Of a stretch of DNA of 64,000 nucleotides, positions 256 to 60,469 are shown in pieces; position 1 is the first letter of the stretch, and every line of letters begins with the position of its first letter. Both the position numbers and the translations under genes were made by a program. Below the pieces are notes generated by a model that worked only from the letters and a program-made list of their open reading frames with translations, was not told the origin of the DNA and made no database searches. The DNA comes from Myxococcales bacterium (GTDB lineage Bacteria > Myxococcota > B64-G9): NCBI GenBank assembly GCA_012798435.1, contig JAAZNF010000028.1, positions 79,362-143,361 on the forward strand, in the 5' to 3' direction.

Positions 256-2199
256 TTATAGCTCGTTCTCGGCCAGGACCACCAGCGAGTCGCCCTTCTG
301 CAAGGTGAGCTTCTGCCGCTTGTCGGGATTCACCTTGACCCCGAAGTTGGCCTCCGGGTTGTTGCTCATCGCGCCCAGCCGGTAGCCGAAGCAGATCTCC
401 TCGCGCTTCAGCGCCTGTCCCATGCAGTCGAGGAAGGGCACCTCGACCGGCAGCTCGGCAAAGTACAGCTCCACCGGCTTCAGGTACACCTCGGAGCCCT
501 CCTCGGAGAACAGGTCGTCGTACACCCGCTTGATGTGCGGCGCCTCGGAGAGCTGGGCCAGGATCATGCTGGCCAGCTTGTTCGAGATGATGAAGTCGTC
601 GACGTGGGTCTGGCTGATGAGGTCCTGGTTCTCGGAGTCCAGGATCTGGGTGATGAGCTTCATCCTGGGCTTCTCGACCCCGGCGTCGCGCAGGATCTTG
701 CGCAGCAAAAGCAGGATCACCATGGTCTCGGAGTCGGTCTTCTCCGGGTTCGGATCCTCGCTCTGGCTGAGCACGAACACGTTGTTGAACATGAAGGGCT
801 TGAGCGAGCGGAGCTGCTCGAGGTCCATGGGGTTGCGGTCGACCAGGCGGATCTTGAGCGTCGGGCACGTCTTCGCGAGCGCCTGCACCTCGGCCTTGAT
901 CTTGTCGGAGGGGTGGTGGACCACGATGTTGACGCTGGAACCCTCGAGCAGGTAGTCGGCGTACTCTCTCACCAGGGTGTTGGCGATGTCGTGCCAGCCG
1001 AGCAGCAGCTCGTGCTCGATGATCTTCTCCAGGCGACGGGGCGTGAACGGGTGCTCGGACGGCTTCCACAGGGGCGCGGGCCGGAAATCGATGGTCGAGT
1101 TGTCCTCGCAGATGATCAGCGCCTTGTCGCCGTCTTTCAGCACCGCGTCCATGGGGGGCCGGATCTCCAGCTTGCCGTCGGCCCGCTCGATGCCCAGCAG
1201 CACCCCGTCGGGGAAATGGAAGAGGGCGTCGTAGAAGCGGATGCCCTTCCAGTCCTGCGCGGTGAGGTACATCTCGCTGCCCTCGAACCCGAGGATCTCG
1301 TTGTAGACCACGGCCAGGCCGCTGGTCCGAGAGGTCTGGACCATGATCTTGCCCAACAACTCCCGGGAGTTCACACACACGATCTGCTCGTCCTCCATGG
1401 TGGCCAGCACGTCGCGGCTGTCCTGGAAATACAGCTCGGCCACGATGGGGATCTGGTTCTTGCCGCCCTCCTGGCAGGCCACCAGGGCCAGCACGGTCTT
1501 GATCACCTTGGCGTCGGAGATGCGTTTCTCGTCCTCGCTGGCGGTCTCCGGGCAGGTGGCCAGCACGATGGCCGACTTGGCGACCGGAGCGGCGATGCGC
1601 TTCAGGGTGGCCAGGGTGGAGGTCTGCCCGTTGCGGCAGATCACCCTGGTCGTGCGCAGGTCGGGAAGGAAGGTGGCGATGCGATCCTCCATCTCCTCCT
1701 TGTCGTGCTCGGCCAAAATGACGATGCTGGCGTCGCGCTCGCTCTCGTTGGCCACCACCAGCTGGCGCATGATGTCGAGCACGCGGTCGCTCCAGCCGAG
1801 GATCACGGTGTGCCCGCGCTCCACCACCCGCGAGCGGCCCTTGCGGAACTCGTGCAGCAGCGTGTCGAGGCTGGTGGTGATGAAGGCGATCAGCATGGAG
1901 AAGATCACCACGCCCAGGAAGCCGGCCACCACCACGGAGACGCGCAGCCACACGCCGGGCTGCTCATCCACGCCCATGTTGCCCGGGTCGGTCATGGCCA
2001 GGAAGGTGTTCCAGAAGTGGTCCGCGAGCGTTCCCTCGACGCCCGGCACCAGCGTCACCACCAGCCAGCGCAGCCCGATGGCGACCAACAGACAGACGGC
2101 GAACAGCACCGTCAGGCTGATGAAGATCGAGGCGCCCCCCTTGGACATGAAGTTCTCGAAACGGTAGCGGAGCCTTTCTCTCAGGCGCGCGTGGGCCAT
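256..2199 (-). CDS. CASTOR/POLLUX-type ion channel with RCK-like cytoplasmic domains
   Basis: This 647-aa protein has two membrane helices (about residues 24-50 and 84-112). Between them lies a pore-helix and filter segment, TDPGNMGVDE at 70-79, resembling the ADxGNH filter of plant CASTOR/POLLUX. A large soluble part follows, with an RCK/TrkA-N-like nucleotide-binding fold that begins near the GWSDR motif at 135-139 and appears to repeat. Plant relatives are calcium-regulated nuclear cation channels; bacterial relatives have no settled substrate. The ATG has a clear AGGAGGAG ribosome site. It faces away from the 5' fragment and ends close to it tail-to-tail. It stands alone, so its ion and physiological role cannot be inferred from neighbours. 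Confidence 0.85.
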   Translation of the reverse strand: MAHARLRERLRYRFENFMSKGGASIFISLTVLFAVCLLVAIGLRWLVVTLVPGVEGTLADHFWNTFLAMTDPGNMGVDEQPGVWLRVSVVVAGFLGVVIFSMLIAFITTSLDTLLHEFRKGRSRVVERGHTVILGWSDRVLDIMRQLVVANESERDASIVILAEHDKEEMEDRIATFLPDLRTTRVICRNGQTSTLATLKRIAAPVAKSAIVLATCPETASEDEKRISDAKVIKTVLALVACQEGGKNQIPIVAELYFQDSRDVLATMEDEQIVCVNSRELLGKIMVQTSRTSGLAVVYNEILGFEGSEMYLTAQDWKGIRFYDALFHFPDGVLLGIERADGKLEIRPPMDAVLKDGDKALIICEDNSTIDFRPAPLWKPSEHPFTPRRLEKIIEHELLLGWHDIANTLVREYADYLLEGSSVNIVVHHPSDKIKAEVQALAKTCPTLKIRLVDRNPMDLEQLRSLKPFMFNNVFVLSQSEDPNPEKTDSETMVILLLLRKILRDAGVEKPRMKLITQILDSENQDLISQTHVDDFIISNKLASMILAQLSEAPHIKRVYDDLFSEEGSEVYLKPVELYFAELPVEVPFLDCMGQALKREEICFGYRLGAMSNNPEANFGVKVNPDKRQKLTLQKGDSLVVLAENEL

Positions 2200-2267: not shown

Positions 2268-2549
2268 TCAAATGAAGATCCGGCAGCGGCCCAGCAGCCC
2301 CAGATCGAAGGCCAGCGCCCCCGTCTTCTCGGCCTCGGAAAGCAGCTCCCGCTGCAGATATAGCGTCACCCCCTCGGCGTCGAAACGCTCGAAGCCGGCT
2401 TCATCCTCGGGCTTCTCCAGCGACCCGACCGGGCCGCGGACGGCGTTTCATCAGCCGACCATCCGCACCTGGACCGATACCGCCAGCACGCCGCCGCGCT
2501 CGAGCACGTGCGAACGGGTCGCGGCGGAATCGAAGCGAGCCTTGCGCAT
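2268..2549 (-). CDS. CC/Se-motif family selenoprotein with two consecutive Sec (UGA-UGA) codons
   Basis: A conventional reading stops after 32 residues at UGA (2451-2453), followed at once by a second in-frame UGA (2448-2450). Reading both as selenocysteine gives a 93-aa protein ending at 2268. The start ATG has a GGAGG site 6-7 nt upstream. The fold order matches the CC/Se-motif (HesB/IscA-like) small proteins as I remember them: an N-terminal strand with a GG turn, a G-Cys-Cys motif (here G33-U34-U equivalent, residues 33-34 being UU), a GKP-like turn, then a GVTLYL strand and a hydrophobic C-terminus with one Cys. A hairpin with a GGUC loop begins 10 nt after the second UGA (see SECIS entry). 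The gene is divergent from arsR over a shared operator, suggesting co-regulation with metalloid stress. Readthrough is inferred, not shown. Confidence 0.8.
2420..2437 (-). promoter_or_regulatory. Predicted bacterial SECIS element of the double-Sec gene
   Basis: On the minus strand this is GCGGCCCGGTCGGGTCGC: seven pairs (one G-U) closed by a GGUC loop. The stem can be extended by three pairs with one bulged U. The loop begins 17 nt after the second UGA and 20 nt after the first, inside the known bacterial window of about 16-37 nt. E. coli fdhF has the same architecture of two 3-bp stems, an interrupted position and a GGUC loop recognised by SelB. Strong GC base composition makes chance hairpins possible, but the loop identity and spacing are specific. 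Confidence 0.75.
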
Positions 2550-2570
2550 CGCGCACCTCCGGCACTTGTA

Positions 2571-2592
2571 TATAACCGAATTTTCGGTTATA
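2571..2592. promoter_or_regulatory. Probable ArsR operator between arsR and the selenoprotein gene
   Basis: TATAACCGAA and TTCGGTTATA form a perfect 10-bp inverted repeat separated by two T residues. It is AT-rich inside GC-rich DNA and lies 21 bp from the minus-strand start (2549) and 29 bp from the arsR start (2622). This is the expected size and position for a dimeric ArsR/SmtB repressor site controlling both divergent transcripts. Confidence 0.8.
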
Positions 2593-2621
2593 GGCAACGT
2601 GGGCGTGGAACGGAGGCCCGC

Positions 2622-2999
2622 ATGGAAGACGAGATCCGAGCCCTCGCCGACACCTTCGCCGGACTGTCGCACCCGGTCCGGCTACGCATGTTGTATCTTA
2701 TGCTGCGCCATCGGGAGCTGTGCGTGTGCGACTTCGTGGAGGCGCTCGGCATCACCCAGTCCATGGCCTCGCGACACCTGCGGTACCTTTTCCACCTCGG
2801 CCTGCTGCGCGATCGGAGGGACACGGTGTGGGTGCACTACCGCATATCCGATCGTCTCGACCCTCGCAGAAGGGCGGTGCTGCGTTCCCTGCGGAGCTGG
2901 CTGGTGGCGCCCGAGCTGACCCGCCTAGAAGAGCGACTGCGTGGCTGGCAAGCGCGTAAACCCTGTCCCTGCACTTCCAAGAAGGAGACTGCGAAGTGA
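2622..2999 (+). CDS. arsR: ArsR/SmtB-family metalloregulator
   Basis: This 125-aa winged-helix repressor carries ELCVCDF at residues 32-38. That is the classic ArsR metal-binding helix, with Cys34 and Cys36 as likely As(III)/Sb(III) ligands. The recognition helix follows (about 44-60), and a second CxC pair (Cys115, Cys117) sits near the C-terminus and could supply further thiolate ligands. The chosen ATG has GGAGG 6 nt upstream; a longer in-frame start upstream would run through the operator. The stop overlaps the arsF GTG start by four bases, so it heads an operon. By family knowledge it represses the operon until a trivalent metalloid binds. Confidence 0.92.
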   Translation: MEDEIRALADTFAGLSHPVRLRMLYLMLRHRELCVCDFVEALGITQSMASRHLRYLFHLGLLRDRRDTVWVHYRISDRLDPRRRAVLRSLRSWLVAPELTRLEERLRGWQARKPCPCTSKKETAK

Positions 3000-3505
3000 A
3001 CTCGTTCTCCCAATTGTCACACCTGCGAGCATTGCATTTCCTGGCGGGCGCCTGCCTGTTCGCGTGGAGCTGCAACAAGGCTCCCGCCGAGCCGGCAGGG
3101 AGCACCTCCGACGCTGCTGCGAAGGCCCCAGCGGCGACGTCTGCCTCGGCGATTCTTCCCGACGGCGTGGTGGCCCTGTACTTCCACGGTGACCGGCGCT
3201 GCCGCACCTGCCTCGGCATCCAGGAAGGGATCGAGAAGATCATCCGTGAGCGCTTCGGTGCCGAGCAGACGGCGGCGCGCCTGCACTACCGCGAAGTCAA
3301 CAGCGACCGGGAGGAAAACCGGGCGCTGGTGCAACAGTTCCAGATCTCCTTCTCCTCGCTGATCGTGGCCCGGGTCAAGGATGGCAAGGTGGTCGACTTC
3401 GAGAACTGCGACAAGGTGTGGGAGTATGCCCACGAGCCCGAGCGGTTTGCAGAGTACGTCGAGAAACAGCTCCGCGCCCGCCTCACGCCAGCTGGAGACA
3501 AGTGA
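2996..3505 (+). CDS. arsF: ArsF-like thioredoxin-fold lipoprotein
   Basis: The 169-aa product has an N-terminal hydrophobic segment ending in Cys26, a plausible lipobox. An Ala-rich linker follows, then a thioredoxin-like domain with a CRTC redox motif (Cys69, Cys72) and another Cys in FENC near the C-terminus. It matches my memory of the ArsF family, called a subunit of nitrophenyl-arsenical reduction in arsEFG operons. It starts with GTG overlapping the arsR stop and ends TGATG, coupled to arsG. No recognisable ArsE is present in the window. Location is probably the outer face of the inner membrane. The substrate could be another metalloid or a protein disulfide. Confidence 0.75.
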   Translation: MNSFSQLSHLRALHFLAGACLFAWSCNKAPAEPAGSTSDAAAKAPAATSASAILPDGVVALYFHGDRRCRTCLGIQEGIEKIIRERFGAEQTAARLHYREVNSDREENRALVQQFQISFSSLIVARVKDGKVVDFENCDKVWEYAHEPERFAEYVEKQLRARLTPAGDK

Positions 3506-4197
3506 TGGAGTCCTTCGCGGCGGCGGCCGGCACCGCCCTGTGGCTGGGTATCCTCACCTCCATCAGCCCCTGCCCGCTGGCCACGAACATCGCCGCCATC
3601 TCCTACACCGGGAGGAGAGTCGGGCGGCCCCTGTGGGTGCTGGCCGCGGGGCTGCTGTACACATTGGGGCGTACCTTGACCTACTTCGCCGTCGCCCTGC
3701 TGGTGGTGAAGACCCTGGTCTCCGTGCCGGGCCTGTCGCAATTCTTGCAGCAGCGCATGAACCAGATCCTGGGCCCGCTGCTGCTGCTGATCGGGCTCAT
3801 GCTCCTCGACGTCATCCCCTGGCCGTGGACGGGGGGAGCGGGGGTCTCGGAGAAACTCAAGGCCCGGGTGGACCGGATCGGGCTGTGGGGCGCGGGCCTG
3901 CTCGGGTTGGTGTTCGCCATGGCGTTCTGCCCGCTCTCGGCGGCGCTGTTCTTCGGCAGCCTGATCCCGCTCTCGCTGCGGCACGACTCCGCGGTGCTCC
4001 TGCCCATCCTGTACGGGATCGGCACGGCACTCCCGGTGGTGATCGTCTCGGGCATCCTGGCCTTCGCCGCCAACCGCATCTCGAAGGCATTCGACGCGCT
4101 CTCCCGCATCGAGCGCTGGATGCGCCGCCTCACCGCGCTGGTCTTCATCGGCATCGGCCTCTACTACACCCTGGCCTTCTCCCTGCGCCTGCTGTAG
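3505..4197 (+). CDS. arsG: ArsG-like efflux permease (DsbD/CcdA transmembrane type)
   Basis: A 230-aa integral membrane protein of the DsbD/CcdA (LysE-like) fold with about six helices. It has two symmetric Cys-Pro motifs, SPCPLATN near residue 20 and AFCPLSAALFF near residue 135, typical of this fold. In arsEFG operons the equivalent protein exports aromatic arsenicals. A pure thiol-relay role passing electrons to ArsF is an alternative, because CcdA-type proteins do that. The ATG overlaps the arsF stop (TGATG), so expression is translationally coupled. Confidence 0.78.
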   Translation: MESFAAAAGTALWLGILTSISPCPLATNIAAISYTGRRVGRPLWVLAAGLLYTLGRTLTYFAVALLVVKTLVSVPGLSQFLQQRMNQILGPLLLLIGLMLLDVIPWPWTGGAGVSEKLKARVDRIGLWGAGLLGLVFAMAFCPLSAALFFGSLIPLSLRHDSAVLLPILYGIGTALPVVIVSGILAFAANRISKAFDALSRIERWMRRLTALVFIGIGLYYTLAFSLRLL

Positions 4198-60116: not shown

Positions 60117-60469
60117 GGCGAGTCTCCCTTGTCTCCGGTGACTTGCACCAGGTCGAGCTCCTTGCCCGACACGATCTCGGAAAGCGCCTTGCCGCAGCGG
60201 GGGCAGAAGAAGGCGAATTGCTCCACCCGCACGATGCGCCGGCAGGTGCGGCAGCGGGCCTTGAGCGGGACGCTCTCGATCTCGAGCGTCGCCCCTTCGG
60301 CGAGCGTGCCGCGGCTCATCACCGTAAAAGCCTCCTGCATGAGCTCCGGCACCACGGCGCGCATCTCGCCCGCGCGCACGGAAAGCCCGGTGACCCGCAC
60401 CAGGCGGTTCTCCTCGGCGGTGCGCTGGACGATCGCCAGCAGCTCCTCGATGATGGACGTCTCGTGCAC
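60113..60469 (-). CDS. hypA: Hydrogenase nickel chaperone HypA
   Basis: The 118-aa protein starts with GTG behind GGGAGG, giving M-H-E-T with nickel ligand His2. The zinc site is Cys73, Cys76, Cys89 and Cys92. It heads the hypABFCD operon. Confidence 0.95.
   Translation of the reverse strand: MHETSIIEELLAIVQRTAEENRLVRVTGLSVRAGEMRAVVPELMQEAFTVMSRGTLAEGATLEIESVPLKARCRTCRRIVRVEQFAFFCPRCGKALSEIVSGKELDLVQVTGDKGDSP

Follow-up and report, generated by a model that had tools for sequence, protein, structure and literature searches.

Within a stretch of 64,000 nucleotides, the whole of which we call the window, lies a small gene of the CC/Se family in which two adjacent UGA codons are very probably both decoded as selenocysteine (Sec), judging from comparative sequence analysis. 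Both cysteines of the vicinal Cys-Cys motif of this family would be replaced by Sec in its product, which is predicted to carry a vicinal Sec-Sec (diselenol/diselenide) site. The initial annotation of this DNA had already suggested that both UGAs are decoded, a suggestion now backed by family homology, the Sec genes of the genome, a hairpin and the occurrence of UGA-UGA in eight relatives.

The gene runs on the minus strand from an ATG at 2549 through 32 codons to TGA-TGA at 2453-2448, and then through 59 sense codons to the stop TGA at 2270-2268, with no frameshift and no stop other than the two UGAs before the terminal TGA (Table 1). The read-through product is MRKARFDSAATRSHVLERGGVLAVSVQVRMVG-UU-NAVRGPVGSLEKPEDEAGFERFDAEGVTLYLQRELLSEAEKTGALAFDLGLLGRCRIFI. 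As had been described, the ATG, which has a good ribosome binding site, the 32 codons and UGA-UGA all stand in one frame, while the downstream codons number 59 rather than the 58 counted initially; the gene was correctly placed at 2268-2549, its strand having been left unstated. The composition of the codon positions is alike on both sides of the UGAs, with GC at positions 1/2/3 of 0.75/0.50/0.88 before them and 0.75/0.42/0.86 after. Downstream re-initiation was considered in place of read-through and rejected: the ATG which overlaps the UGAs (TGATGA) opens a different frame that ends after 17 codons, and the family protein is therefore not made in this way.

Table 1 Features of the tandem-UGA locus in the window.
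Feature	Position	Strand	Basis
Castor/Pollux-like channel protein, downstream of the selenoprotein gene after a gap of 68 nt	256..2199	-	PF06241, PF22614
CC/Se-family selenoprotein gene, 93 residues, Sec33-Sec34	2268..2549	-	read-through translation and NF041239 match
SECIS-like hairpin with a GGUC loop (2430-2427) and a 7-bp stem that includes one G-U	2420..2437	-	folding and geometry scan
UGA-UGA, predicted adjacent Sec codons 33-34	2448..2453	-	TGATGA also kept in eight relatives
Ribosome binding site GGAGGTG, 4 nt 5' of the ATG	2554..2560	-	sequence
Palindrome TTGTATATAACCGAA-TT-TTCGGTTATAGGCAA between two divergent genes, probable ArsR operator	2566..2597	.	sequence
ArsR/SmtB regulator, divergent from the selenoprotein gene, with a metal-site-like ELCVCDF motif	2622..2999	+	NF033788, 76.1 bits
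ArsF-family protein	2996..3505	+	NF040494, 89.3 bits
ArsG-family transporter	3505..4197	+	NF040495, 281.5 bits

The assignment to the CC/Se family, also proposed initially, is supported by a match of the whole protein, with Cys written for Sec, to the NCBIfam profile NF041239 (E=2.2e-9, residues 11-72, 37.2 bits for a curated cut-off of 40). The 59-residue stretch beyond the UGAs also matches this profile by itself (E=2.4e-4), so that the family match is independent of the Cys written at the UGAs and the downstream part truly belongs to the family. NF041239 likewise matches each of the 16 members of the sets A1 and A5. The window gene is nonetheless a divergent member, with at most 30% identity to other members and a branch of 4.46 changes per column in the tree. 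Kinship with HesB/IscA, the other affiliation suggested for this protein, was not borne out. Like HesB/IscA-like proteins (TIGR01911, motif UxGP), the window protein is small and has its G-Cys/Sec motif behind an N-terminal pattern of helix plus strand, but searches with TIGR01911, Pfam and PDB gave no significant match and an hhalign comparison against E. coli IscA, ErpA and SufA returned 6.8% probability. At a pLDDT of 41, the AlphaFold model built from the single sequence was of too low quality for use in a fold search.

Relatives were sought in the phylum of the MAG Deltaproteobacteria bacterium 311FN.001 and then in the class of one member, which yielded 26 further sequences. With TGA read as U, their motifs comprise eight UU forms (L074, L080, L082, L085, L086, L087, L088 and L089, all from one class of another phylum), six UC forms (L063, L067, L081, L083, L084 and L090), one CU form (L091), one CC form (L072) and nine single-U forms with A, R, G or K in the next position; one relative, L073, is without the motif. 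In the eight UU genes TGA-TGA falls at the same alignment columns as in the window gene and, given the UC, CU and CC relatives, each UGA aligns with Cys somewhere. The claim that UGA-UGA stands where Cys-Cys is expected thus holds, and the homologue search with the read-through translation, which had been proposed as a check, found CC, CU, UC and UU relatives. The CU gene lies on a fragmentary contig and its 5' part looks broken or frameshifted.

The UU relatives share the sequence GUUVKxxTPAVRxGKP with small variations, form one supported clade in the tree (97/92) and come from genomes which all (8/8) encode tRNA-Sec, with at least 67 bits. In the close pair L085/L087 the region after the UGAs is under strong purifying selection, with 8.0 synonymous changes over 46.7 sites against 2.0 nonsynonymous changes over 154.3 sites. 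Among 195 genomes of its own phylum (Myxococcota), the window gene is the only read-through member, the one other match (L022) being a Gly-Cys form. A single-protein search for related loci in genome contigs and a tblastn search of the protein in plasmids each returned nothing, and a further search by phylum (G195) led back to the phylum of the window without bringing in new taxa. In the tree the window gene falls outside the UU clade, its placement unsure, on a branch so long that the tree of these sequences is compatible both with a single, deep origin of the UU form in the family and with two origins.

As initially reported, a hairpin with a GGUC loop, the predicted target of SelB, follows the UGAs at SECIS distance. 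Its sequence is gcggccc-GGUC-gggucgc and its loop lies 17 nt past the second UGA and 20 nt past the first. Of the 1328 TGAs in the window, just 8 (0.6%) are followed at 15-25 nt by a GGU-loop hairpin with a stem of 6 bp or more, although in stability the present hairpin is unremarkable for DNA this rich in GC (z -0.5 to -1.3). Because it is not unusually stable for its composition, the covariation support comes from the relatives and not from the window gene itself, whose loop lies one codon away from the homologous place in the relatives. There the hairpin reads CCC(U/G)(G/A)C-GGUNC-G(C/U)(A/C/U)nGGG, and each of the eight UU genes has the loop 20 nt past its second UGA. Across 12 distinct sequences 72/72 cells are paired, and two pairs are changed on both sides (U-A to G-C and G-C to A-U). 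The covariation score of 0.265 exceeds those of all 500 shuffles (0.097) and of every slid version (at most 0.071), bearing in mind that the structure was drawn from the same sequences and that kinship among them inflates the counts. One covarying side is the synonymous third position of a Pro codon, and conservation of the protein alone would therefore not explain the pairing. The Rfam SECIS_1 model (RF00031) had no match in the source genome and none in control genomes either, so this search is uninformative.

The source genome (5.05 Mb, 97% complete) has the machinery for Sec incorporation, whose presence had been named as something to check: tRNA-Sec(UCA), with anticodon TCA (75.6 bits), selA (539 bits), selB (271 bits) and selD (357 bits) all score above their cut-offs. 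Three outcomes had been listed initially as counting against a selenoprotein, namely a genome lacking Sec machinery, homologues that end at the first UGA and an absence of homologues with Cys at these positions; we found Sec machinery, read-through homologues and Cys-containing homologues. Sec is inserted at a UGA with a SECIS hairpin about 16-37 nt downstream. In the mechanism we propose, tRNA-Sec and SelB would read both adjacent UGAs and a single hairpin would most likely serve the two; we favour one hairpin since there is no obvious second one and since the distances of its GGU loop from the first UGA (20 nt) and from the second (17 nt) both fall within this range.

Two other readings of the tandem UGAs have to be weighed. 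If the frame were open only by chance, or the gene were a pseudogene, translation would end after 32 codons. Identity to the relatives is indeed low and the raw frame is not rare, as TGATGA occurs 29 times in the window and 2 of these 29 hexamers are preceded by at least 25 codons, counted from a start, and followed by no fewer than 50. An open frame alone is weak evidence, because the second of these, at window position 60321 on the minus strand, also lies in a long open frame, an arginine-rich shadow frame without family match that serves as a chance control. What places the selenoprotein gene above chance is the homology found on both sides of its UGAs. A dead or chance frame also sits badly with a post-UGA part that matches NF041239 by itself, with the steady codon-position composition, with the lack of any frameshift or further stop and with the recurrence of UGA-UGA in eight other genomes, and we regard this reading as scarcely credible.

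Alternatively, only one of the UGAs might be decoded efficiently, the other mostly causing termination or being skipped, in which case the main product would be short or carry a single Sec and the double form would be a rare by-product. Sec insertion in bacteria competes with termination, the two codons must share one hairpin, and single-U relatives, whose second position is free (A, R, G or K), are common. In the TPAVR subgroup, however, only U or C occurs at the second position (UU in eight, UC in five, CU in one), and the UU clade keeps TGA-TGA at both codons while the surrounding third positions change. We consider efficient decoding of just one codon improbable and retain the reading in which both UGAs specify Sec.

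The genes that surround the window gene bear on its function. The palindrome TATAACCGAA-TT-TTCGGTTATA, with perfect 10-bp arms, lies within the 32-bp repeat at 2566-2597, and is most simply read as an ArsR operator controlling both sides. An ArsR-type operator would then be shared between the selenoprotein gene and arsR-arsF-arsG, and the ELCVCDF motif of the regulator resembles the As(III)-binding motif of characterized ArsR regulators. The Castor/Pollux-like channel gene is possibly in one transcription unit with the selenoprotein gene. ArsEFG acts on nitroaromatic arsenicals according to Chen et al. 2019, as cited in PMC9144182. Because of the divergent ArsR-type operator shared with arsR-arsF-arsG, we tentatively propose that the Sec-Sec site binds or reduces an arsenical; it might do so in the manner of a vicinal dithiol, with softer and more reactive selenolates.

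There is about an even chance that the protein instead has a general role in redox or metal-ion chemistry, perhaps as a reductase or as a ligand of Hg, Cu or Fe-S, and that its place beside the ars genes is incidental or recent. Among the relatives, neither linkage to ars genes nor a fixed gene neighbourhood is seen: a 6PF2K/histidine-phosphatase gene lies near six UU or CU loci and a DsrE gene near one, and two UC loci have genes for AOR and an iron alcohol dehydrogenase. No ars genes were found beside the CC/Se relatives at the loci examined, nor any CC/Se genes beside relatives of ArsG at 39 loci or anywhere in 15 whole genomes that hold such relatives, so that a role in arsenic metabolism would be specific to the window locus. 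The gene also occurs only in this genome of its family, which suggests acquisition. Against an incidental neighbourhood, the perfect 10-bp arms of the palindrome and the divergent arsR with its ELCVCDF motif point to shared control here. In the MAG RA.bin29, of the same phylum, an ars cluster (L024) encodes an ArsG 78% identical to that of the window, together with ArsF, an arsenite methyltransferase-like protein and transporters, and is without a CC/Se gene. Several genes of the UU clade are divergent from a 6PF2K/histidine-phosphatase fusion gene.

CC/Se is a known selenoprotein family, and what is provisionally new here is the Sec-Sec form, provisionally because the family name may already cover UU forms. 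The consecutive UGAs of the algal protein disulfide isomerase PDI_e are decoded by a 3'UTR SECIS. That protein, with the motif GUGUU, was presented in 2020 as the earliest known case of consecutive Sec in a selenoprotein (PMC7539508), and was the sole claimed Sec-Sec selenoprotein found in our literature search for consecutive or adjacent Sec. It shares with the window gene two consecutive Sec from consecutive UGA codons, but it is a eukaryotic member of the protein disulfide isomerases and has neither its sequence nor its decoding machinery in common with the window gene. In an inventory of prokaryotic selenoproteins from 2026, NF041239 (Moor_selen_rel) is entered with one Sec and the motif CxxU, and its table of 119 families and subfamilies contains no UU motif (PMC13188914, Table 1). 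The window protein resembles NF041239 by profile, motif place and size, whereas in the window gene and in the clade of eight relatives both vicinal positions are predicted to be Sec. In the same table, the double selenoprotein MbdU (NF045648), SaoC and SaoL have bacterial vicinal Cys/Sec motifs thought to bind metal; these belong to other families and their motif is listed as CU, in contrast to UU. SelL, a diselenide selenoprotein (Shchedrina et al. 2007, as cited in PMC2874816), and the UxxU families (PMC13188914) appear, as described in these sources, to be analogous in having two nearby Sec capable of forming a diselenide, but differ in their UxxU spacing and their folds, the Sec residues of the window protein being adjacent.

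On balance we favour, with some reserve, the view that these genes represent a bacterial subfamily with a conserved vicinal Sec-Sec motif, present in at least two phyla, in which one SECIS drives two insertions per ribosome, the window UU being perhaps of independent origin and recruited to arsenic resistance. Such genes have likely been missed because gene callers end at the first UGA. Tandem Sec codons put recoding to the test, as once the first UGA has been read the same hairpin, now three bases closer, has to be engaged by another SelB-GTP-Sec-tRNA before the next codon, and a natural, conserved case makes double insertion directly measurable. A vicinal Sec-Sec pair is also chemically unusual in its low redox potential and its great softness as a metal ligand. 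Among natural versions of the vicinal dithiol used for arsenic and mercury, it could be the strongest.

Some further features were seen in the single-Sec clade of the family (L064-L066, L068-L071, L075 and L076). One of its genomes (G327, with L071) has a single-UGA member and no tRNA-Sec above the cut-off, its assembly being perhaps incomplete. The hairpin loop lies about 19-20 nt past the UGA in most members of this clade, which have a conserved Cys about 3 residues from the C-terminus.
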